Assembly (NCBI GenBank): GCA_022829145.1
Contig: CM040753.1
Location: 9,712,384 to 9,776,383, forward strand
DNA from: Albula goreensis
Taxonomy: Eukaryota > Chordata > Actinopteri > Albuliformes > Albulidae
DNA: 64,000 nucleotides
Direction: 5' to 3'
Each line of letters begins with the position of its first letter. Position 1 is the stretch's first letter. Of this stretch, positions 3,232 to 41,973 are shown one piece after another. Made by a program: the position numbers and the translations under genes. The notes beneath the pieces are model-generated. The model saw only the letters and a program-made list of their open reading frames with translations, had not been told where the DNA came from and did not search any database.

Positions 3232-6200
3232 GTATGTGTCGGATCACCTTCTGGAAGGGCTTGAGCGCAGCGTGCCCCGTTTGGCTATCATAAGGGGCTC
3301 TTGTCTGCAGCCTTGCTAATGCTGTGGCAGCGTTCAATGAGCGTTTCAGGGACATTGTCCCTTAGCAGACCCGTGTCTCCTTACGAGCTGCCTGCACGAG
3401 AAGCCACCTGAGAGGGTGTGAAAGTTTCTTCCTTTTTAATAAACAATGGTGTGTGTGTGTGTGTGTGTGTGCATATATGAGAATGAGAATTTATATGGTT
3501 TATTGTTAATTATTAAGTCTGGTGAAACATTTTTTAGTTTACTTTAATTTAAATACATTTTTTATTTTTATTTATTCAATGTATCTGCCAAACATTAAAC
3601 AAGGCTGTTAATAATTTTACTCTCAGCTGATCAGCTTATTTCATACATTTGTCCTTAAATATTGCTACAGAATCAATTAATAAATCTATGTCAAAGAATT
3701 TGAATGAATTTATAATAATTATGCATGAATTAAGAGTTTTATGTCAATTGTAGTTTTTGAAACGGCTTAGTAATCTGGGGTTGTTGCATCCAATTAAATA
3801 AAAAATTTCATTGTCATAAATTTGACCTGAGCCACAGGTCATAAATAAATACTTTAAAAAAGCTGGTTTGAAGGGAGAGAGTAAGGCATGACAGACTTTG
3901 AACAAAGAAACAGTGGAACGGTGAGGACAGCCTGACAGTGGGGGTGGGGGAAACTGCACTAAAATGATATGGCAGCCAGAGCTGAAGAGGAGCAGAGCCA
4001 TAACCAGACTGGCTGGCAGAGGCCAGAGCTCTGTGTTTAAATGTTCGTTTAAATAAGGTATTTCAATATGTGGTAACATTTCAATATAAGCAATAAGGCA
4101 TTGGGACCGTGCTGTATCGTCGATACAGTCATAGCTTAAGGGTTTGAAGGAGGACTGCTGTGCTTTAGCTGTGACCATATTGATGATACACTATGGCTTA
4201 TTCCTTAATATGTAGAAGTGAGCTAAATTATACAATGGGCCAAGCTAAGGTGGAACAGAGCTGTGACCAAACTGAATCTTCTCGGAGCTTGAGGGTGTGA
4301 AAGTGTGCTCTGAGATGCCTTTGTTTACCAGAAACTCAAGCGCATTTGTATGTTGCGAGGCAGAGACAGAGCTCACCACAACAGAGAACCGACATATGAA
4401 AGTAAACAGGTACATGAACTTAGGTGATTTAAGGGTATGATGTATTGCAGAAGCAGAAACAGCACAGCCCAGTTGTGTTTAGAGTGGGAGGGTTTACTAT
4501 TTCCATCACCAGCACTTTTCTTTAAATGCAACTAATTTCTAAACTCAATAACATGACTAAGTTCCATTGTCAAAAAGGATAAAATTGTGATCCTGTGAAT
4601 TCTGGAGGTTCCCCATTGTGTTCCACAAAGCAAATCTTAGTTATTTTTTAAGTTTGAATGTTTTATGATTTCACCGATTTATTTAGAATAATGTATCTAC
4701 AAGATGCAATCACTTTTTAAGTCAGCAGCAATGTCCCATTTGCCTCTGTGCTGTTGTTGTAATATACTTGAGAGCAAAGTGTTCATTCCTCTTCATTAAC
4801 ACATGAAGTGAATGTGTATACAGTATGGGGATGTATTTTCTGTGCATGCTGTTTTTACAGTGGCTCTTTGCTCTCTCCTTAGGATTCTGGGATTGCTCTT
4901 TGCAACAATTGCCAGCTTTCAACTGTGCCCAGGGACCTACCTGGCAACATTGCAGAGCTTCAAATAAACAACAACCACATAAGAACGTTACAGAGCAGAT
5001 GTCTGTCTGGATATCCTGCTCTCCGTATCCTGAGGTGTGCAAGCAACAGTTTGGACACTATTGAGCCAGAAACCTTCCTCAGCACTGCTCACATAGAGAG
5101 CCTCAGCTTGGCCGATAATAACCTTTTTATTGGATACCGGCAGACTGGCTGGGCTCTGCGCTCATTAACTCGGCTGAGAAACTTGGATCTTTCAGGGAAT
5201 GGACTGACAGAGGATATGGCTTCCTTCCTTCTGGGAAACATGACCTCGCTGGAGTACCTGTCTCTCTCCAGGAACATCATGTTGAGACTGGATGAGGACA
5301 TTTTTCGTCATCTTCATCAGCTCAGGGAGCTAAATGTGGAGAGGAATGTGCTCTTTGAGATAGATGGGGCCTTTGATCACTTGCATAAGCTCCAACGGCT
5401 CAATGTGGCCTTCAATAGCCTGCCCTGCCTGGTGGATTTCCAGCTTACACAGCTGGTGGAGCTGAATGCCAGTCACAACGCTCTCGAGTGGTTTATCTCC
5501 CGCCCGGACATGGAGGAGACGTTCCACTTGGAGACTCTTGATCTCTCAGACAACAGTCTCCTCTTTTTCCCTTTCCTGCCCACCCACAGCCGAATTCAGA
5601 ACTTGCTGCTGTCCAACAACAGGGTGAGATTTTATGAGGACCTTGCAGAGCATGCCTCTCCAAATTGGACCACCACAGTTCAGTTTTTCAACCTGAGGGG
5701 AAATGTAAGCAATGTGACCGCTAAGCTGTGGGATGAAAGTCTTCATGGGGGAATCTCTACCTTGACGGTGGTGGACCTGACTGGGAACCAGGTGAACTAC
5801 CTCCCTCAGAATTTCCTCCGTAAAATGCCATCTTTGTCAAGACTAAAATTGGGAACAAACTGTTTGGAATCCCTGAACATATCCTCCGAGGAGTTCCCAG
5901 CTAATCTGTACGAGCTTGATGTGAGCAACAACAGGCTAACGTCTTTACAAGGTAACCAAAGCTCATTCAGAGAGCTGAGCAGGTTAACATATCTCAATCT
6001 CAGTTCAAATAGCCTGCAGTTACTCCCTCCCAGGATGTTCTCTGCCCTGCCTAGGCTTAGCACAGTGGATCTTAGTTATAACAGAGTGAGGATCTGCCCC
6101 TCAGAGGAAGGTGGTGACACAGTGTCTGAATACTCGGACTGTGCTGCTTGGAGAAACATCATCTCTCTGAGACAGCTCTACCTGGCAGGGTGCAGCCTAA

Positions 6201-6841
6201 GACACCTGCCACCTGCTGCCTTTGAGAGGACTCCCATAACACACCTGGACCTGTCAAACAATCCAGAAATCCTGATAAAACAAGAAGCATTGACAGGTCT
6301 GGGCAGAACTTTGCAACATTTAGGCCTGGCAAACACTGGTTTAAAAAATTTTGACTTTTCACCATTTCAGCAGTTAAAATCGTTGAACATTTCCAGTAAT
6401 GACATTCATCAGCTCCCGGGTTCTCTACTGAGCCTCCGCCTGAAATTGCTTGACCTGAGGGACAACAGGCTGACCACTATTCCACCTCAGCAGGCTAACG
6501 TGCTAGCCCAGAGTGTTAAGACTCTTTTCCTCGGGGGAAACCCTTTCAACTGCTGCCAGCTGGACTGGTACAGAACATTCAAGGAGACAAAGGTGGTAAA
6601 TATCGAAGACTGGACAGAATTGTCCTGCCAGTTTCTCTCACACAGGGCATACAGAGCGGAGTTTTTCCGGGGACAGATTTGTGGGGGTGGTGCTGGAGAG
6701 CCCAGCTGGTGGCATGTTGCACTCCTCCTGTTTGCAGCTTTCTCTGTGGTGGGAATCGCCATCATTTTCATGATCACCTTCTGTCCCAGACAGTTGCCTA
6801 AGGCTATCAAAAAGAAATGCAGGAGACCCACATCCTATTAA
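3124..6841 (+). CDS. nrros: Negative regulator of reactive oxygen species / LRRC33 (two coding exons)
   Basis: Coding exons are 3124-3231 and 4883-6841, joined in phase 0 (donor GTATGT, acceptor CTCTCCTTAG), giving 688 residues; the mammalian protein is about 690. Seen: a hydrophobic signal peptide in exon 1, a cysteine-containing cap, an array of extracellular leucine-rich repeats with several N-glycosylation sequons, a C-terminal cysteine-rich cap with a CC pair, one membrane helix at about 645-669 and a basic tail of about 19 residues. LRR blocks such as LDLSGNGLTEDMA and FEIDGAF match LRRC33 better than its relative GARP/LRRC32. Known for the family: in macrophages and microglia it binds latent TGF-beta1 covalently and presents it to integrins, and it was also reported to restrain NOX2. 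Cysteines at about 218 and 363 align with the family's TGF-beta-linking cysteines. The GTG at 4925 is not a start; it lies inside exon 2. Confidence 0.93.
3449..3471 (+). repeat. (GT)n microsatellite in nrros intron 1
   Basis: About eleven uninterrupted GT units followed by a CATATATG stretch. Confidence 0.9.
4091..4207. mobile_element. Degenerate palindromic MITE in nrros intron 1
   Basis: About 117 bases with imperfect inverted ends. The left end AATAAGGCAT pairs with the right end ATGGCTTATT (9 of 10), and the inner arms around 4114-4138 and 4165-4190 are also inverted copies of each other with about one mismatch in five. The arrangement resembles short palindromic elements common in fish genomes. 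No target-site duplication could be confirmed, and the family name is not assigned. Confidence 0.5.
4883..6841 (+). CDS. nrros: nrros coding exon 2 (LRR ectodomain, TM, tail)
   Basis: One long exon of 652 codons plus TAA carries the whole LRR ectodomain, the membrane helix and the tail. The start is fixed by the AG at 4881-4882 after a pyrimidine tract; reading from there stays in frame with the open frame visible from 4925. A single large LRR exon preceded by a small signal-peptide exon fits the LRRC32/LRRC33 gene structure. Confidence 0.93.
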   Translation, partial: DSGIALCNNCQLSTVPRDLPGNIAELQINNNHIRTLQSRCLSGYPALRILRCASNSLDTIEPETFLSTAHIESLSLADNNLFIGYRQTGWALRSLTRLRNLDLSGNGLTEDMASFLLGNMTSLEYLSLSRNIMLRLDEDIFRHLHQLRELNVERNVLFEIDGAFDHLHKLQRLNVAFNSLPCLVDFQLTQLVELNASHNALEWFISRPDMEETFHLETLDLSDNSLLFFPFLPTHSRIQNLLLSNNRVRFYEDLAEHASPNWTTTVQFFNLRGNVSNVTAKLWDESLHGGISTLTVVDLTGNQVNYLPQNFLRKMPSLSRLKLGTNCLESLNISSEEFPANLYELDVSNNRLTSLQGNQSSFRELSRLTYLNLSSNSLQLLPPRMFSALPRLSTVDLSYNRVRICPSEEGGDTVSEYSDCAAWRNIISLRQLYLAGCSLRHLPPAAFERTPITHLDLSNNPEILIKQEALTGLGRTLQHLGLANTGLKNFDFSPFQQLKSLNISSNDIHQLPGSLLSLRLKLLDLRDNRLTTIPPQQANVLAQSVKTLFLGGNPFNCCQLDWYRTFKETKVVNIEDWTELSCQFLSHRAYRAEFFRGQICGGGAGEPSWWHVALLLFAAFSVVGIAIIFMITFCPRQLPKAIKKKCRRPTSY

Positions 6842-12181: not shown

Positions 12182-28773
<16,592 letters not shown>

Positions 28774-30310: not shown

Positions 30311-33254
30311 TAGGCTCTTAATGGAATATATGAAGGAAATGGTGATAAGAAAAAACTGATTTTGTTTCTAGGAAATTGAATTAGCTTGTATGCGTATGAG
30401 GTCAATCCATGTGGCATCTACTGCCAGATTTATTTTTTTTCCAATACTCTCATGACTTTAAATTATATTATTGCATTTAGTTTGACACTAATGTTAAAAA
30501 AGGCTTCTATTGTAAATAGCAAGCTAAAGTATGTTCCGTTTCATGTTGCATATTATCCATCTTCTGTGTCCTACAAAATCTGACATTTTTATGACTTTAA
30601 GTACTCTAGAGAAGACATACAACCAGTGAGATATAGGCAATATTTAAACACTAGGTGGCAGCATATGCCTACAATTACAGAACTTGAAAACATTTGCAAT
30701 TCTTTTTGAAAAAGAGTCCACAACATATCCCACACGAGTTGTGGAAACAAATAGCTATATACACACAGAAAATACAGGACCACAATTATTTCAACTATTT
30801 GTGATTTGAGAGAGTTTACAGATTTCCAACACTTGCAATACCTATTGTGAAAGGTACTCTGCAGCATGTGGAGGGGGCATCCAAATGAACACGGACATGG
30901 ACGCAGCTGATTACAGTATTATAATGTATTTGTGTTTCTTTAACACTCACAAATATATCAATATAGGGATGGTTTTTTCACCAAAACTGATTGTTTGAAG
31001 TGCAATTGTAGTAACAAGCATGACCATTTTAATCACGCAAAATGTGTATGCTTTTAAATAATTATGTGATGACCATTTTATCTTGATACCTGAAACAAAA
31101 TAATGCTCATGCAAAGACAAATCTAAATAATGCAGTATAACTTAACAATGACACTGTCTCTCTGTCTCAAAAAAAAAAAAAAAAAAAAAAATAACTTTGG
31201 AATTTTAATAAACAGCAGTGTTATTAGCCATACTCATTTAATGCAAATGGTCTCAAGACAGTGGAAAGACAAATGTAGCACTCATTTCCCTCAGTTTTTA
31301 GGAAGACACTACATCAAGCTGGAGACAAAGATAAAGAGTACAGACTCAACTTTAAGGACTTCTCCATTTGCAGGAGCATGTGGAGCACTTTCTTATGTTA
31401 GACAAGCAAAGGGAATGCCATTTAACTGAATTTCCTTTCTTTGAAACAGCTCTTAATCACAACATGCCATAGTTCTATAGTCCATCTACAATGCACACAG
31501 ACAGTGATGAAGGACTTTTCTCGGATTGTTTAGTTTAAGGAACTATATTTTGCTGCAACCACCTTTTTAAGAGAAAATCTTGGTGCTGACAGTCACCTCA
31601 GCTCAGAAGCCTGTTTTTCAGCTTCACAGTCTAATGGAGTACAGACTGCTGTGTTTCATCATAACCTCTGTGCGGAGTTGGGCATTTTAACTTGTCTTTT
31701 ACAATGTTTTTTCAAGTGTGTTGGGCGGAGTCTCTCTAGAGCCACAGACTGGCTGAACACAGCTCAATGCACTGATCAGTCGCTGACACTCGCCACCCAC
31801 AGCACTTTAAAAAGGGGAAGTCCTTACTCAATAGGCAAGAATAATTTGGGTGTCACAGAACATTCAGGGGTGTGTTTATCACTAGTTTTAATAATTTTTT
31901 TTTCTCATTTCCTTTTTTCCAGATATATACTTGAATTTAAAGAAAATGCTTGCTTGTGCAGAACAGTGAATTCTGTATGAGATCATAGATGTGGAAAATT
32001 GTGGCCTAAAACAGAACTTCCACCGTGGATTCTTGTATATCACATGATCTGTTGAACTTCCTCATCGATACAGTCAGTGGAGTTTAGTTTTGCCTGTAAC
32101 AGTGGTAGTTAGTCCTGGTCCTAGTGAACCTCTGTGTTTGCTGTTTAGTTTATACAGACTAGGTTTGATGCAGTTGTTTGCAGACAACATTTTTTGATGG
32201 CTACATGCTATATTTTGTTTTTAGACGTGTTTGTTATATTCAATGGATATGTAATATTGCTTTCAAGTCATCATGTTAATAACTGCCTCTGTATTTTTAA
32301 TATATCTGCTAAATTTGTTAATTAGTTTTTAACCCCTTAGCAATTATATATTTGAATGATGTCTCTTGAATATAATCAGTATCACAATTTTTTGGGGTGC
32401 AAATCAGCATAATACTTTAAATATACGTATTTATTATAAATAAGTGAAATAGACTGCTTGTACACGTCCATGTCTTTATTGTAGCCTCTTCCAAAAAGGA
32501 CACATAGTAGACAGCTGTCAAGACATTACATCCAGATTAACATTTCATTAACAACTCAGTGAAACATAATTGAAACTAGTTAGATTTCAGTCCAGCAGAC
32601 TCAGTGGAGCACCATGGCCAAGAATGGGAAACACTGATCCATGAAGCAGATTGCATAAAACAACCCAAATGTTCACATAAAGACCCAGACTGTAACCATG
32701 TGATTAACCTATTGAGATCTGCAGGACTGCAAAGCTCATTTTCTCTCTGGCTTTATTCTAAGGCCACCAGAGAAAATGGAAAGTGAATAACCCAGGAGCC
32801 AAGATGTATCTTGAGCAGGGATTTGGAAGAAATGAGCATCCGTTATACCATATAATCATTTTGAACATCCCTGACCAAAGCACAGTCATTCTAACTTCTT
32901 GTTCATGTTTTCATGTCCTGAGCATTAGAAGTTGCACTGGTCTGGTTGCCGCTAAATGCCTGCTGGTAATTGGTAAAATATATTTTAATGGCTCTGGTTC
33001 TTGTGTAATTATTTGGCAACTGGGGCATGGGTGCACTCTATCTGAAGCTGGGAAATTTAAATCTGCAGGCTGGATGGAGAAAATAGTCTGTCAATATGAT
33101 ATTTTAGATATAGTGTGTTTTTTTCACAATGTCCACCAAAGTACAATGTAAAAATGTTACATTATGGAATAAAAACAAACACATATGGGACACCTTACAA
33201 ATTTCTAACATTGTGATAATGTTACTATTATATTATGGTAAGGTTAAATTGTGT

Positions 33255-33312
33255 TACATTTACATTTTGCATTTAGCAGATGATCTTATCCAGTGTGACT
33301 ACAAAGTTACAG
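33255..33312 (+). repeat. Fragment of a common teleost interspersed repeat
   Basis: The order ACATTT, GCATTTAGCAGATGATCTTA, then TCCAG-GTGACTACAAAGTTAC resembles a short motif (often written ATTTAGCAGACGCTTTTATC...) found in thousands of fish repeats. It is too short to assign a family. Confidence 0.45.
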
Positions 33313-35984
33313 CAGAACAAATAGGTTTTCTAATATTGTGACACATTCACATTAATAAATGTGATTAATCCTTGTTTACACACCCCAGACCTTCTGTCCA
33401 GGGCTGGGGTTGTATCAAGGGGAAGGCCTTGAGGAGCATGACTTATCATCTGTTCCTTATTTCACTGTATGTGAATCCTCTGCTGTCATTCAACCCTGAC
33501 CCTGCCCAGTCTCTTTGAGTGACTGCATGTGTCATGTGAAGAGGAGGAGACAGGACTTACTCTTAGTGATGCCCCTTCAGCTCTCTCCCTCATATCTCAT
33601 GGGCTTCATTTGGACTGACCATAGGCAATGATTTGCTCTCAAGAAGCTGCCTTTTACATATCAGTGAGATTACAAGATTATGCTGACTTACATGCAGGCA
33701 CCTCAGTGTTTCACCAATCTAAGAAAGGCAGGTAAGACAGGAGGAAGCAGATGACACTTATCACCTAAAATTGTTTACAGAGAAAAAAAAGCACAGTAAT
33801 TCCAGCTTTTTTCAGAAATGAGAAGGTAGTTTATTTGCTGTTGGATATGACTCCAGCATGTCTCAGTGCTTCATTACTTCACTGGACAACTCTTTATTTT
33901 TCTCTGTTATGGTTTCCTGGCAACACATCCACTGACCAATAACTAATGAACACTGCAGACACTAGAAATAGTACTCTTTGGCCAAAAAGGCACTCACCGT
34001 ATCAGATTTCCCTATGTGATCAAAGGCTACCTGACTCAGCATCTTTGTGTTGAAGGCAGAATCCATACTGGTCCATTTTTAAATCATGTTTCTTTTTGAA
34101 AACTGTTTAATGATTTGAAAACATTCAGACTTCACAGATTGACCCTGAGGTCTAAACAGAAAATATTTGCTTAAAAACTTGGTTGAAAGTGAATTATTCT
34201 ACCTGCCATATAAAATGTTTCCATAACACATAATATTTTTTTGTGGCTGACAACTTTAGATCACATATATTTACACATACCAAATGTTTTTAACAAAATT
34301 ATAATAATGTAAAATTAAATAAGAAAGAACTACAATAAAAGAACAGACAGAGATCATACTGCAAACTAAATACGCCTTAACTACAAAAGTGCAATTATCA
34401 AAAATGACCTGTTGCGTGTGAGGACAGAACTATAAGGTATCAAGGTACTTCCTTCATAATTCACATATTGCCTAACGGACAGTCTCATGCTGTTAAATGA
34501 TCTTTTTCCTCTTCTGCAAGTGACCACTTAAGAAACCAGCTGAAATATATGGTGCCTGTGCACCATTTATTTCTTATGGCATTCCTCAAGAGTGTTTCAA
34601 ACCTTGCTGGCATGAACTGAAATACTGGGAAACACCTGGCATTCATTTCTCCAGTGTAACCCAGGGAGCTGCAGGTTTGAGCCACGCGCGAGACTGCCGT
34701 CAAGCCCTCGAGCAAATACTGAAAGGCCTCAATAAATATGTTGCCGAGCAATAGGGCTCAGGGTTTGAGGGCCTGTTAATCACATAAATGTGTTTTCATA
34801 TTTCCACAAGTGTTCCTCAGGGACTCAGCCACAAAATATGTCCGGGATAACAGGGACAGAGCGTGCTCCTTCAATAATCATGTTCCGCTTGGAAGGTGCT
34901 GGCACAAGTCTACACAAACTCTTTGAACTATTTTGTGGTTATCCATGTAATCAAAGCCATTTGAGGTACCATTTGAAGTGAGATGGTTAAAGTCTGGAAG
35001 TCAGAATATTTGTTAAAATAACAGTCCAGCTCCTTGGAGATAGGGATAAGTTACAGCCCCACTAGTTGCCACTATATTGTAAATCATCATGCTTCTGCTG
35101 TTTCATCTCTTCATGTGCCAGAGATCCAGGATTTTGCTGCTTGTGGAAATTCACTTCCCTTTTATGCAAAGTGCGTTCCTGTTCCTTAAATTACCGAGTT
35201 TACAGTTTCTTTAACCTGGCCAGAAGTTATTCAGGAATATCATGTGACTAACACAAAACACTATGAGCCACTGTTATGTTAGGCTGCAGTATGCATTCTT
35301 ATCTATACTGAAGTGTACAGGCAGTTATCCAAAAATAAAAACACTACTATGAGGTTACTTTGGTGTTGGGTTACCACATGTAGCTAATATGGCTGGTGTG
35401 TGTGATGGCATAGAACATATCGGCATCATGTATTCAGTCCAAGGAATGCAATATTAATCTTCTGCAGTAAATTCAGTCATCCAAGTATGAGCTGTTTGAC
35501 GCATATATCACAAGCGCTGTCATGCTCCTCATTGGTCAACTACTTGCACTGTGTGGGTGGGGACACTGTCATTTTACAAGACAACCCTCTCTGCAGGAAA
35601 GAAATTCTTTAACATGAAGATGTTCTGAACTGTTCTTTAATGGCTAACATCAATCTAACCTTCCATGGGTACCCAAACCTTGCTGGGAAAATTCTGTGCC
35701 ACTCCTTTAAAGAACCACCAGAACCCTTCAGTATTGGAACACTGTAGCATTTAATTGTTTGTTTCATGAACTTCAATATTATACATATATTGCCCGTACA
35801 ATTCTGTTGACCCTAAATTCACTGAATATTCAGCTTTTTATTTCTTATAACCCAAAAAATGTGGTGCTTTTAGACAATGCCTTGGGAAGACACAGAGATG
35901 TGGAATACCCTACTCAAGTAAAGACTTCTAAAGACCTTGGGGGTTTTTTCTTATGCTAATCAAACACATTGTGTCCTTATCCAT

Positions 35985-35990
35985 TTTATT
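35985..35990 (-). terminator. selenoj: selenoj polyadenylation signal
   Basis: AATAAA on the minus strand (plus-strand TTTATT), 283 bases beyond the selenoj stop and about 80 bases past the SECIS, giving a compact 3' UTR of about 300 bases. Confidence 0.6.
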
Positions 35991-36059
35991 TCAATGTTAG
36001 GGGCACGGTATTTTATACAAGCAAAACATTTCTAGTGGAACACACAGGAGCTTTTGACA

Positions 36060-36121
36060 GAACAAAATACATCAAGTTCCAACCCTCCAGTCTTTAAGCT
36101 GGAACTTTCATTTACTGTGTT
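36060..36121 (-). promoter_or_regulatory. selenoj: SECIS element in the selenoj 3' UTR
   Basis: Read on the minus strand, ATGA (36111-36108) and TGAT (36074-36071) form the non-Watson-Crick quartet. The 11-base arms between them, AGTTCCAGCTT and GGGTTGGAACT, pair completely (eight Watson-Crick pairs and three G-U). The apical loop AAAGACTGGA carries the conserved A-run at its 5' side (36095-36093). Outside the quartet, AACACAGTA can pair with TATTTTGTT with a single mismatch plus one G-U, forming the lower helix. This meets all eukaryotic SECIS rules (SBP2-binding quartet, 11-bp helix, apical AA). It lies 162 bases after the stop codon and would direct Sec insertion at 38473-38475. Confidence 0.9.
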
Positions 36122-36272
36122 GTCAAAGCACAAGTGCGACACAAGAAGATTAATGCAATAAAAAATAAAATAAAAAAGCAATGTCTTCATTAATGCAAGA
36201 ATCTCAATGATGGACGGTCTAAAATGTGAATGTTTGTGAGTATCTGTTAGTGTGTATGTGTGCGGGCATAGG

Positions 36273-36368
36273 TTAATTTAAGCTTGCAATTTTATTCGCC
36301 AACTCAAGCAGCATGAGATATCTGTGGGTCCTACTCTTCCAAGAATCAGGAATCCCCTGCAGGCCAAG
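36273..36368 (-). CDS. selenoj: selenoj terminal coding exon
   Basis: 31 codons plus TAA (36275-36273): LGLQGIPDSWKSRTHRYL followed by a leucine-rich helix. The genuine stop is TAA, distinct from the recoded TGA, which avoids ambiguity at termination. The acceptor is CCAACAG. Confidence 0.9.
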   Translation of the reverse strand, partial: LGLQGIPDSWKSRTHRYLMLLELANKIASLN

Positions 36369-39300
36369 CTGTTGGCATAAAAAGAGCACATCTTCAGGAA
36401 AGAAATAAACCGCACACTATGCAAGGTCAAACACATTACATTGGAAAAGGCATGACAGATGTGGAAATCTTAAAGGGCTATGAAAATATCCATAAATACT
36501 TCAGTGTTCACTCAATGCCAAATCCTCCCTCTGTATTTTTTTTTTTTCATTCCAGCAAAAGAAGAGCCTCAATAGTAAACACATTCGAAACAGGAAAATT
36601 AAGTAAATATTAATGAATTCACTCATATATGTGAGCAAAATATAAATATTGAGTAACAACAATTCAATAGCCTGGCGTCTCATTTAACATCCTCTCAGAG
36701 GCAAAGCACTTAAATATGTGGCATAATTAAATGCAACACTATTTTGTGGCTTGTTTGATTAAATATCCATGCATTTTGCTAATGGAGGATGGATATGCAG
36801 AATGGTGGAGAGAAGGGTGCAGTGTAGCAATGTCAAGATAAGGGATGATCGTACTCCAGATGCAGCACATTTTCAGAAATTGGGTCATAATGTCACTGTC
36901 TTACGATACATGGGCATTAAGCATGTACCCAAACATTTGCACGCTGCCATGAAAGATGTCATGAAAGGTTACTTTTACAGATGGAATCATTTAGGATGTA
37001 TATCCTCCACACGCACCATATAGCCTCATAAATGAGGAACTTTCTCATTGTTCCTGCTTACCTGTCTATATTTATTCCAGTATTTTTTCTTTTTCTTAAT
37101 GACTTTGTGGAATGTCCAGCTCATTGTAATGAAAAAAAATATATTTTTTTTGTGACATTCTTAAGAGTGGGAAGGCCTACCTACCTATGCAGTGATCCCA
37201 GCTACTGCCAGGTTATCTGACAAATTGTTGATTCTTTCGTCAAAGGTTTTAATTCAGTGCTTTACACTGTTGTTTACTATGCCATATTCACTGGGTTTAT
37301 TAACTGATGAAAGCTCCATTAGTAAGATGTCATGTCCATGTTAGAAAATGACCCTGCCTGTTTCCTGTATACATCTATATAAGTCTGCAAAACTGGTGGA
37401 TACACCTGACAATGACTAATTATGAAATGTTTTATTCTATAAAATCACTATTTGGGAGCAATTAGAACAGTGTGTGCATATCATATCATGATGACATTGT
37501 GGCACGGGATGTGTGGCATCTTTCATTACATGATTTTTCAGTGTAGATCTATTTGCTTCTCATCTTTATTTTAACCACAAGAAGTTTATTTTTCCCATAC
37601 CTGAGCCCCCAAACAGGCCCCAATGAAGGAACCTCTGCTACTGGTGCAGCCCCCGCAGCGCATGGTGTCCCGAATGGCCGTGTCAAACTCGACCGCTGTC
37701 AGGACCCCATGCAGCGCTGCCTGGAATGCACCAGGCAAACCTGAGCAGGAAGCAGAACACAGAAGAAGACAAGAAGCATTTCAATAAGTAATTCTCATTA
37801 AGGCACATTTGCCAGATACTGTTGTCAAAGAATCATTTTCAAACTGGAACTTGCTATGGCGTAAAGCCTCCGTATCCTTCAAGCAAACAAATCTTATCAC
37901 TGGTTCATATTGAACATTCATCCACTCCAGCCATATGCTTCTATGCAACCCTGATGCAGTTAGTGGAATGCACATAAATATAGGCAGTGCTGCAAGTGAA
38001 TGTGGCTAGTTTTACAGCAGTTAAATAAACAAACTGTGACTGGAATGGAGTCTTTCTAATTTCAAAGATATAGCTGGCTAGTTGCTCAAAAAGATTCCAA
38101 TGACTCTTCTAGTAGCCAGCTATCACAATACAGCAGCTAAAGAGTTGTGATGAATGAACCAATCAGAATGCTGATCACCATTGACCCTCCCACTCCCACA
38201 TTTTTCCAATCATCCAAGACAGTGGATGTTGAGTGAGCATGTTTGAAGAAAAAAATAGCACACAGACCCTGGCAAATTCAATTCAGTGAATATTTTAAAT
38301 ATTTTGTTTTTTCTCCAGCAAACTATGCTGATATTGAAAGCTTTCAAACATTTGCATTTTTGTGGAAAAAAAGGAAGAGAATTCATAACAGGATAAAAAG
38401 GGAGAGCAGCATTACAGAATTTTATGTCTCTGTTTTCTGTTGCTCCAGAGATGAATAGGTGTACGGCCTACCTCATGTGTTTGTGAAAATACTGGGAATC
38501 AGTTCTTTTGGACCCTTGGATAAGTAATTTTTTACTTGGAGAATGTGGTCTGCAGTAAAGAGAAAGAAACACAGAGAAACAATTTGAAATATCAGATCAT
38601 GCTTTTGATTAGTACTCTACAAAGTGTTTTTCAGGGTGTTACTGTTCTGAAGATGTTATTTTGCTGTTATATACAAATGTCAAGTCAATACCATGGACTT
38701 TATGAGAATGGTTTATTCTTGACACCTTTAACTGCTACACACACTTCTTAATAAGCCCATTTTAAACATTACTTGATTTTTAAATCCAGTCTGATGGCAT
38801 GAAGTAGCATGAAGTGAAGATTCTAGAACTACCATCATGAAGGGAAGTTTGTATGTGATCACCATAGCATATGGAAGCTGTGTACTGAAGAGGCCTAAAA
38901 ATACAGGACTGAGACAGGATGAAAATGTACTGAAGCAAAACCGTTTAGTGTGTCACATACCAACCACAGCAATGTCCATATCTTGGGGGTTGTTCCGGTT
39001 TGGGTCCTTGAGCTGTTGCAGCACTGAATCAAGGGCATTTGGATCAGAACCATTCAGGATGTAATGTTCCAGAAACCTGGGACGTAACAGGAATTGGTGA
39101 TTAAACCTAGCCATCACTAATATAACACTGACATCACAATTATGTGTTTTACATTGCAATGTGGTTGGAATACCCTTGCAAGGGTATTATTCATGTCAGT
39201 AGGATTGCCATGGTAAAAAAAAAGACAAATGCAATTTAAAAACATACACCATGGCAATTTGAAATTCTGAATTGGGAATCTTGTGCTAGTGTTCTCCACT

Positions 39301-41973
39301 GCCCCAATCTTACTCCATTCAGTAAAACCAAGGTGCCACTCATGTATGGATAATATTCTTGTTATAAATGACTGCTACACATGCTTTGACATTTTGGTTA
39401 TTTATTATTATTATTATTATTAGTAGTAGTAGTATTATTAGTATTATTATTATTTCTACTTCAGAATACGTCAATTTGTTTTGGTATTTTTACAGACATA
39501 AGGGGCACATTCACTTTAGGAGTGATTGCGCATCGCAGGTGCTGAGATGAAAACCCTCACCGAGCTGCAGCCAGTGTCTCCGCCACACACATGTCATTGT
39601 TCTGTGTGACACGCGTGGCCTCTTCAACTCTTTCCAACATTTCCTGAGTACCAGCATACATGGCCACAATCGGAGCCAGCTTCGCAATCCCATCAATCTG
39701 ATTGTCTATGTCACATCCTAATGGGAAAACACATGGTTATATATCAATTACAGATACAAAAAATAATATAATACAGTAATACAAACAGTGGGTACGATTA
39801 TGTGCAAATTAACTGTTAAGTTAATAGATTAATTCAGTAAAATAATCCTCTACTATTTTGGATGTTTTGTTGACTGTTTTTAACTTTCTTGGGGAATTAT
39901 AGCCTTTTTTGTTTGGCTGCTATTTAATTTGCGTACATGCTAGATAAAATTTCAACATGGCACAATTCACCATGCTATGTCAACTGCCCTGACGGCCATA
40001 CAATAGCAAAATACCACAGAAATAAGGTAACCTAACAAACTTTAAATTAATGATGGGCTCTGCCTTTAGATTTCTAAGAAGTCAAAGCTATTAATAAAAT
40101 GCATCTATCCCAGAGTTTCTAACATTGTTCTAGCAGACCCTATGTACAAATTTAATATACATTAGCTGGTAAGCAACATTTTTAGATGATGTATAAATTC
40201 ACAAATATATCACATCCTATTGTATATTCACATCAAAAGCATGGAGCTTCAACTCCAACGGATTCTCCAACTGCCTGGAGCCCCACTAAACTTCTTAGCA
40301 ACGTCATAACTTGGAAAACACAAATAATTGTCTTGAGCAGAAAGCTGGATAATTTCACATTTTAACTCCAGTACCCCTTCATAATGTCTGCCCCTTCAGC
40401 ATTATTTTTATAAATGTGTTTTTTTTTTTAATTTGGCATTATACAGTAACCAGCCAGTGATATTTATGTTGTTCTCATGAACCACCTACAACCAGCTGGT
40501 AACAAGTACCTTTTGAGGCAAAGCCTTAGCTGTGAACCAGTAATGGCATATTGGATATTAAAATTAGATTTAAATTGGGATTTAAATACAGCTTCTCTTA
40601 CAGTATATTAGGCTAGTTACTCATGTACATCTAGCTCTTGTACCAGTCTCTGTCTTGCCCATATCCATGTTTTTCAGGAAGCTCTTGAGGCTGGCATGTC
40701 TCCAGGGTCCCTCAATAGGTAACTGTGGTCTTGGAGCTTAAAATAATAGATTTTATTCAGGATTATGAATTTTTTTAGACAAATGATTATAGTAACAATT
40801 ATAAAATAAAATTTACAAGAACAACACCAATAACAATAATCAACCCTTTATTTAGGGATCACTTGGAGCCTACCTCCTTTTGACCTATAAGGGTCATTTA
40901 CAGGAGTGTCATACTCTGATCCTGGACCAAAAACCTTGTATATGCGTTCCTTTAGATCATCTATATTCAACCCTGATGAAGAAATGCACAACACAACAAG
41001 ATTAGTTAGGCCTGTTATATAGCCACATTGCTGTAAGTTCCATTCAAATGTACATTTTCCATTCATAAACATTGAATGCTGTTTGTAACTGTGGGATGAC
41101 AATTGCCACCATCTCTCTCAGTTTGTCAAAAACATACAATTTGGAAGGCTGGAAACCCAACTCTCAGCTTGTTACACAACCGATTTTTGTCTTATGCTAA
41201 ATTTTAATACTGAAATACTATAGTTACCTTCACATTCACACAAAGACTCCAACAGCACATACGCCTGGTCACCATAGCAAGTCTGCTGGCCAGTGTCCCT
41301 CCGGTAGAAAGGGTTGGCAGACTGAGGACGGAATTCTGGATAGGGCTCTACTTCTGACAAGATGTCATTAAGCTTCTGAGGGTCATATATCCAATGGAGT
41401 GGCTGTGCTGTAAGTACAAAGGAAGAAAAGACTTTGCTGGCACTGGTAAAAAAAAAAAAAGGTTTATCACATATGAACAGATATTCTGTGGCTAGCACTT
41501 TCAAAGCTTAATGATTCCACACATAGATTTGTTTAGAAACAATTTATGTGAATGCAGACTGACTGTAATGCAAATCATCCCTTATGTGAGAGGTTTTGAC
41601 TTATTATATGTTATTATATGGTACAAATGGCTCGCTAGCTTTCTCTGGAGATTGAATAATGTTTTATTCACATTTAGTGGCTTACACAGCAGTTTAACAA
41701 ACAGCTAAGTAAACAAGTTATACAAGTCGGAACAACACCCAAAAAGCCCTTTCTTATCACTGGCTTCAGAAGTGCAGATGTCCAGCTGATATGTGCATTG
41801 AGAACGCTCTGAACTGGAGGCTCACGAGGTTCATGCAGTTATATTTCTGGTTTTACCTCATTAAAACTCACCACTTTTGGCTTCATATTTCACTACTGCA
41901 ACCTACCTGCTGCATCCGCCACAGCAGCTCCAACAATCGCCCCGACAATCCTGTCAGCAAGCGCAAGGGACAT
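36273..41973 (-). CDS. selenoj: Selenoprotein J (ADP-ribosylglycohydrolase / J1-crystallin-like fold)
   Basis: Nine minus-strand coding exons: 41907-41973, 41228-41407, 40874-40972, 40644-40736, 39561-39717, 38961-39076, 38472-38549, 37601-37740 and 36273-36368. All GT/AG phases match, giving 341 residues with TGA read as selenocysteine at residue 263 (IFTNT-Sec-GLPG). The start VGAIVGAAVADAAAQPLHWI and the CYGDQAYVLLESL block mark the ADP-ribosylglycohydrolase superfamily, in the SelJ/jellyfish J1-crystallin branch. Known: SelJ is a selenoprotein largely restricted to ray-finned fishes (also reported in sea urchin), reported to be expressed in the lens and possibly structural. Acidic metal-binding motifs of active hydrolases are altered here (YGDQ, GGCTSSR), so classical ADP-ribose hydrolysis is doubtful. 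The SECIS at about 36060-36121 supports recoding. ORF callers would break or skip exon 7. Confidence 0.93.
36815..37110 (+). mobile_element. Degenerate retroelement remnant, GIY-YIG-like C-terminus
   Basis: On the plus strand, antisense to selenoj intron 8. The frame at 36769-37020 has GHNVTVLRYMGIKHVP, and after a frame change near 36970 a Q-x-E-S-F-x-M-Y-I-L-H-T stretch appears, followed by a stop. This pairing recalls the C-terminal region of Penelope-type retroelements. It has at least one frameshift and a stop, so it is dead. The family is assigned from memory and is tentative. Confidence 0.4.
38472..38549 (-). CDS. selenoj: selenoj exon 7 carrying the Sec UGA
   Basis: A TGCAG acceptor at 38550-38554, 78 bases, and a donor GTAGGC at 38471-38466. 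It encodes the HILQVKNYLSKGPKELIP segment, then SIFTNT and TGA at 38475-38473, with a single G left before the donor. Phases (2 in, 1 out) fit exons 6 and 8 exactly. Without this exon the flanking exons would still join in frame but would lack a helix that the family conserves, so the exon is real and the TGA is in frame. Confidence 0.92.
39402..39456 (+). repeat. (TTA)n/(GTA)n trinucleotide repeat
   Basis: Interrupted TTA and AGT repeat of about 55 bases in the selenoj intron between exons 5 and 6. Confidence 0.85.

Follow-up and report, generated by a model that had tools for sequence, protein, structure and literature searches.

A selenoprotein J gene of Albula goreensis with an in-frame TGA that is most likely read as selenocysteine

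A nine-exon gene on contig CM040753.1 of the fish Albula goreensis (assembly GCA_022829145.1) raises the question of whether an in-frame TGA ends its product or specifies selenocysteine (Sec). The window, by which we mean the whole stretch of DNA that was analysed, comprises 64,000 nucleotides, and positions refer to it unless a contig or the paralogue piece L002 is named. The gene runs on the minus strand from 41973 to 36273, and its joined exons amount to 1026 bases, i.e. 341 codons followed by TAA (Table 1). All eight introns are of the GT-AG type and the phases fit across every junction. The sole in-frame break is the TGA at codon 263 (38475-38473), which is the final complete codon of exon 7 and is followed in that exon by one further base; the surrounding residues read FTNT-Sec-GLPG. 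An earlier sequence-only reading had claimed this continuous frame, the residues around codon 263 and the match of the exon 7 phases to both neighbours, and the coordinates, introns and phases of the joined frame agree with it on each point. With a probability of roughly 0.96, we regard the locus as an intact bony-fish SELENOJ gene in which the UGA would be decoded as Sec via a SECIS element, giving a full product of 341 residues from the ADP-ribosylglycohydrolase family.

Table 1. Positions of the SelJ gene features in the window and of the second gene copy.
Feature	Position	Strand	Basis
Coding exon 1 (residues 1-22), ATG at 41973	41907..41973	-	Joined frame; matching paralogue exon L002 1775-1847
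Coding exon 2, with T65-C66-Y67 in the T-D-D position	41228..41407	-	Joined frame; protein search of genome
Coding exon 3	40874..40972	-	Joined frame; protein search of genome
Coding exon 4	40644..40736	-	Joined frame; protein search of genome
Coding exon 5	39561..39717	-	Joined frame; protein search of genome
Coding exon 6	38961..39076	-	Joined frame; protein search of genome
Coding exon 7, 78 bases	38472..38549	-	Joined frame; paralogue exon 7 (L002 4740-4817) likewise 78 bases
In-frame TGA, putative Sec codon 263	38473..38475	-	Joined frame; paralogue TGA aligned
Coding exon 8, with C292-G-G-C295-T296-S297 at the place of GGDTD	37601..37740	-	Joined frame; domain and structure-sequence alignments
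Stable hairpin immediately 3' of the Sec codon (spliced mRNA)	37717-37738	-	Fold
Coding exon 9, TAA stop 36275-36273	36273..36368	-	Joined frame
SECIS element, 3' flank (presumed 3' UTR)	36061..36121	-	RF00031, 27 bits; fold
AATAAA, possible polyadenylation signal	35985..35990	-	Motif read in sequence
Second SelJ gene (paralogue)	L002 1775-6347 = contig C24 3346274-3350846		Nine exons, same TGA, own SECIS

The joined product was matched to the Pfam family ADP_ribosyl_GH (PF03747) over residues 11-318 (1.9e-40; 139.8 bits against a cut-off of 26.2). TGA is by default a stop codon, and if it were a true stop here the locus would be a pseudogene or would encode a shrunken protein of 262 residues, with exons 8 and 9 as remnants. 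However, when the protein was split at the TGA both sides matched the family separately (residues 1-262, 1.5e-23; residues 264-341, from exons 8 and 9 alone, 5.5e-12), and the frame beyond the TGA is therefore real protein sequence.

For comparison, the window's own assembly (932 Mb) was used, in which the window lies on contig C13. A protein search of this genome returned 15 matches, eight on C13 belonging to the window gene and seven on C24 belonging to the paralogue. Exons 1 and 7 of the paralogue are absent from the protein-search matches and were located by reading the sequence. The second copy has nine exons at matching positions and 344 codons, and its TGA at codon 264 (FPNT-Sec-GLPG, compared with FTNT-Sec-GLPG in the window) aligns with codon 263 of the window gene. 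A stop or shift of frame in relatives, which the sequence-only reading had set against its own proposal, was looked for in one relative, the paralogue, and there the frame, the TGA, the intron positions and the SECIS are all kept.

Selection was assessed from the two copies within the same genome at 339 aligned codons without the TGA, 261 before it and 78 after it. The pN/pS ratio is 0.20 before the TGA (75% identity) and 0.22 after it (77% identity), and the Fisher P value for an excess of synonymous change after the TGA is 7e-11, which together indicate protein-level constraint downstream of the TGA. Such purifying selection on exons 8 and 9 argues against a true stop, as does the presence of the same TGA in both copies despite strong divergence at synonymous sites (pS 0.71 before and 0.57 after; dS before the TGA is 2.28, near saturation). 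A true stop would be favoured by the low conservation of exon 7, which has a pN/pS of 0.575 and the same residue at 14 of 25 aligned codons, the lowest identity of the nine exons. The description of this exon as well conserved in the earlier reading does not hold between the copies, although NT-TGA-GLPG is conserved in both; with the exception of its end, this exon varies more than any other.

At the gathering threshold, an Rfam search of the whole window gave no match to any family. A search of positions 33000-37000 at a loose threshold (4,001 bases, 4227 families) placed SECIS_1 (RF00031) at 36121-36061 on the minus strand as the best of five rows, with 27 bits against a gathering score of 35 and an E of 0.031, or about 7e-6 for SECIS_1 alone after division by the number of families. 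Over the whole window, with E up to 5, one SECIS match was obtained among 13 rows (E 0.5). The element starts 161 bases past the stop codon, the AATAAA at 35990 comes after it, and its core consists of ATGA, 12 bases, AAA in the loop and TGAT. Folding gave z scores of -3.80 for a 43-base piece (none of 200 shuffles equally stable) and -2.47 for a 76-base piece (one of 200). A SECIS pattern scan is not specific by itself, since four places in the window fit (one on the plus and three on the minus strand); the longest helix, of 11 pairs, is that of the place behind the stop. In the 3' flank of the paralogue, the SECIS at L002 6559-6621 scored 21.4 bits (gathering 35; E 0.99 in 3,902 bases), about equal to the 21.7 bits of the snoRNA family SNORD81 on the same hairpin. 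Of the 12 helix pairs in the window copy, two are lost in the paralogue and ten also form there, one of the ten having changed on both sides, from T-A to G-C.

Because the window score falls below the gathering score, which counts towards a true stop, the assignment draws its support from the core motif, the helix and the SECIS of the paralogue. The claim of a SECIS in the 3' UTR thus stands as regards the SECIS_1 match, core, helix and second copy, and falls short in its bit score. The element presumably lies in the mRNA. A SECIS-like hairpin in both copies is a further point against a true stop, which we consider highly improbable.

In the general mechanism of Sec insertion, a SECIS element brings in SECISBP2 and EEFSEC with Sec-tRNA. 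For the SelJ gene, the nine coding exons would be joined in the mRNA and the SECIS hairpin would recruit SECISBP2 and EEFSEC with Sec-tRNA; because of this hairpin in the 3' UTR, the UGA at codon 263 would be decoded as Sec and the full product would have 341 residues and belong to the ADP-ribosylglycohydrolase family. Six matches to SepSecS were found in the genome, at one locus and all over the cut-off. Among 24 tRNA-Sec matches listed, one exceeded the cut-off (82 bits; cut-off 47); the other 23 were below it, and such weak matches are present in all 14 control genomes. Given that the paralogue shares the TGA and has its own SECIS, that selection acts after the TGA and that the genome encodes SepSecS and tRNA-Sec, the TGA at codon 263 is most likely read as Sec; its insertion in translation we infer from sequence. 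An in-frame Sec UGA in a fish SelJ, as had been proposed, is accordingly the best reading of the frame, the Pfam matches on both sides, the SECIS, the TGA of the paralogue and the selection.

In each copy exon 7 has 78 bases and both of its ends are in phase 1. Skipping it therefore keeps the frame and, were this to occur regularly, a 315-residue protein without Sec would be the main or a second product. As the sole product, however, it leaves unexplained why both copies retain the TGA, the splice sites and a SECIS, and we give regular skipping scarcely any credence. A minor isoform lacking exon 7 would not contradict decoding of the UGA as Sec. A general rule stated in an excerpt of PMC8704476 is that a UGA upstream of exon junctions leads to nonsense-mediated decay when selenium is short. 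Since the SelJ UGA lies upstream of two exon junctions, decay of its mRNA would under that rule be expected at low selenium if the UGA were read as a stop.

In the spliced mRNA, a stable hairpin is predicted immediately 3' of the Sec codon. Among 332 codon-aligned windows of the coding sequence, the 30 bases following the UGA rank first in stability; with 42 and 51 bases the ranks are 20 of 328 and 3 of 325, respectively. Synonymous shuffles, drawn with usage-weighted and uniform codons, respectively, gave P values of 0.13 and 0.036 for 30 bases, 0.28 and 0.15 for 42 bases, 0.045 and 0.012 for 51 bases, and 0.068 and 0.028 for 60 bases. The paralogue hairpin has lost one pair (-9.5 kcal/mol, compared with -14.6 kcal/mol in the window copy). 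No excess codon conservation after the UGA was detected with four window sizes (P 0.11 to 0.26), and no literature report of a redefinition element in SelJ was found. The resemblance to a selenocysteine redefinition element (SRE), a conserved stem-loop directly 3' of the UGA that raises recoding, is supported neither by the paralogue nor by most of the synonymous controls and is unproven.

Each SelJ copy is followed downstream by a BAR-domain exon in the same orientation, from a gene that we take to be SH3GLB-like: at C13 9730884-9730970, 17.7 kb from SelJ, and at C24 3359907-3359987, 9.1 kb from the paralogue. A third BAR-domain exon, on C4, has no adjoining SelJ match. A single event, such as a genome duplication, probably copied SelJ and the BAR-domain gene together. 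Exon-like frames on the minus strand of the window at 13084-13533 and 18309-18623 yield matches to the beginning of an SH3 domain (E 0.0068) and to a BAR segment (4.8e-5). Neither match reaches its Pfam cut-off; the frames presumably resemble an SH3GLB (endophilin-B) gene. Elsewhere in the window, a 652-residue open frame at 4883-6838 on the plus strand contains leucine-rich repeats (LRR_8, 9.3e-51) and a hydrophobic stretch near its end, and is assumed by us to resemble an LRRC32/NRROS-type receptor; at 33263-33315 on the minus strand, the UnaL2 LINE 3' element was matched weakly, with 18.4 bits against a cut-off of 55.

The aspartates of the TDD and DxD motifs are the presumed metal ligands of ADP-ribosylhydrolases. 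These enzymes (DraG, ARH3, MJ1187; PF03747) share with SelJ the domain family (1.9e-40) and an alignable sequence, whereas in SelJ the presumed metal-ligand aspartates are replaced and a Sec codon is present. In the alignment with MJ1187 (1t5j), T-D-D corresponds to T65-C66-Y67, in a weak segment (domain i-Evalue 2.6), and D-T-D to C295-T296-S297; at the second motif SelJ likewise departs from 2cwc and 2woe. The paralogue has S-C-Y and C-T-C at these places, and it shares C66, C292, C295 and the Sec codon with the window gene. The aspartate ligands of an active metal-dependent ADP-ribosylhydrolase are thus absent, the first motif being read from a weak alignment. Because these residues are replaced, partly by Cys, SelJ is unlikely to be a metal-dependent ADP-ribosylhydrolase of the classical type.

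A putative redox or structural role is more likely for SelJ than that of a classical hydrolase. A redox role of Sec263 with Cys residues is possible; the alternative would be a structural role like that of the J1-crystallins of cubozoan jellyfish. The J1-crystallins, which serve a structural role, are a related subfamily and were reportedly identified by Castellano et al. in 2005 as the subfamily nearest to SelJ. That SelJ might be a former ADP-ribosylhydrolase whose metal site became a selenium-sulphur redox site, with Sec263 acting together with C66 and/or C295, is a doubtful proposal. The C-terminal 60 residues of mt-SAF23 (PDB 6sga), presumably of the trypanosome mitochondrial ribosome, align with SelJ (2.3e-6), and both Asp residues of GGDxD are absent as in SelJ; its N-terminal half aligns over only about 20 residues, and we know of no Sec in this protein. 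Of the relatives of the SelJ C-terminus with a solved structure, mt-SAF23 (PDB 6sga, 9hny) is one of the closest. A search of the collected genome contigs for relatives gave one locus (L001), a bacterial frame of 831 residues that matches residues 281-341 only; none were found in plasmids and viral contigs. NCBIfam returned only DraG and Tri1, both far below their cut-offs. A review (PMC9087173), in the excerpt available, describes ARH proteins as homologous to SelJ with the Ribosyl_crysJ1 domain in common. No established SelJ function was found in literature excerpts, and no literature report of selenoprotein J in the zebrafish lens was found.

Selenoprotein J (SELENOJ/SelJ) of bony fishes is said to have been described by Castellano et al. 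in 2005. An excerpt of PMC3316567 gives it, among vertebrates, for fishes only and reports that medaka and stickleback have a duplicate, SelJ2; passages of PMC9988957 and PMC7539508 name selja of Atlantic salmon and algal SELENOJ with Cys homologues, respectively. Published SelJ and SelJ2 resemble the window gene in their ADP-ribosylglycohydrolase-type protein, one internal Sec UGA, 3'-flank SECIS, fish host and two gene copies, and by description no difference was found. As SelJ of fishes and its duplicates are already in print, novelty is low and the finding is correct but ordinary. Misannotation by standard pipelines had also been predicted, which fits an excerpt of PMC12822975 that places SELENOJ among the families with <1% 'Well annotated' genes in Ensembl; in the same excerpt, RefSeq does no worse on families specific to fishes. 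At this locus, the reading of a selenoprotein gene is confirmed as correct; automatic pipelines often misannotate such genes. Both copies within one fish genome retain the Sec codon, and the replaced metal ligands provide a concrete, testable hint that SelJ may be no normal ADP-ribosylhydrolase.
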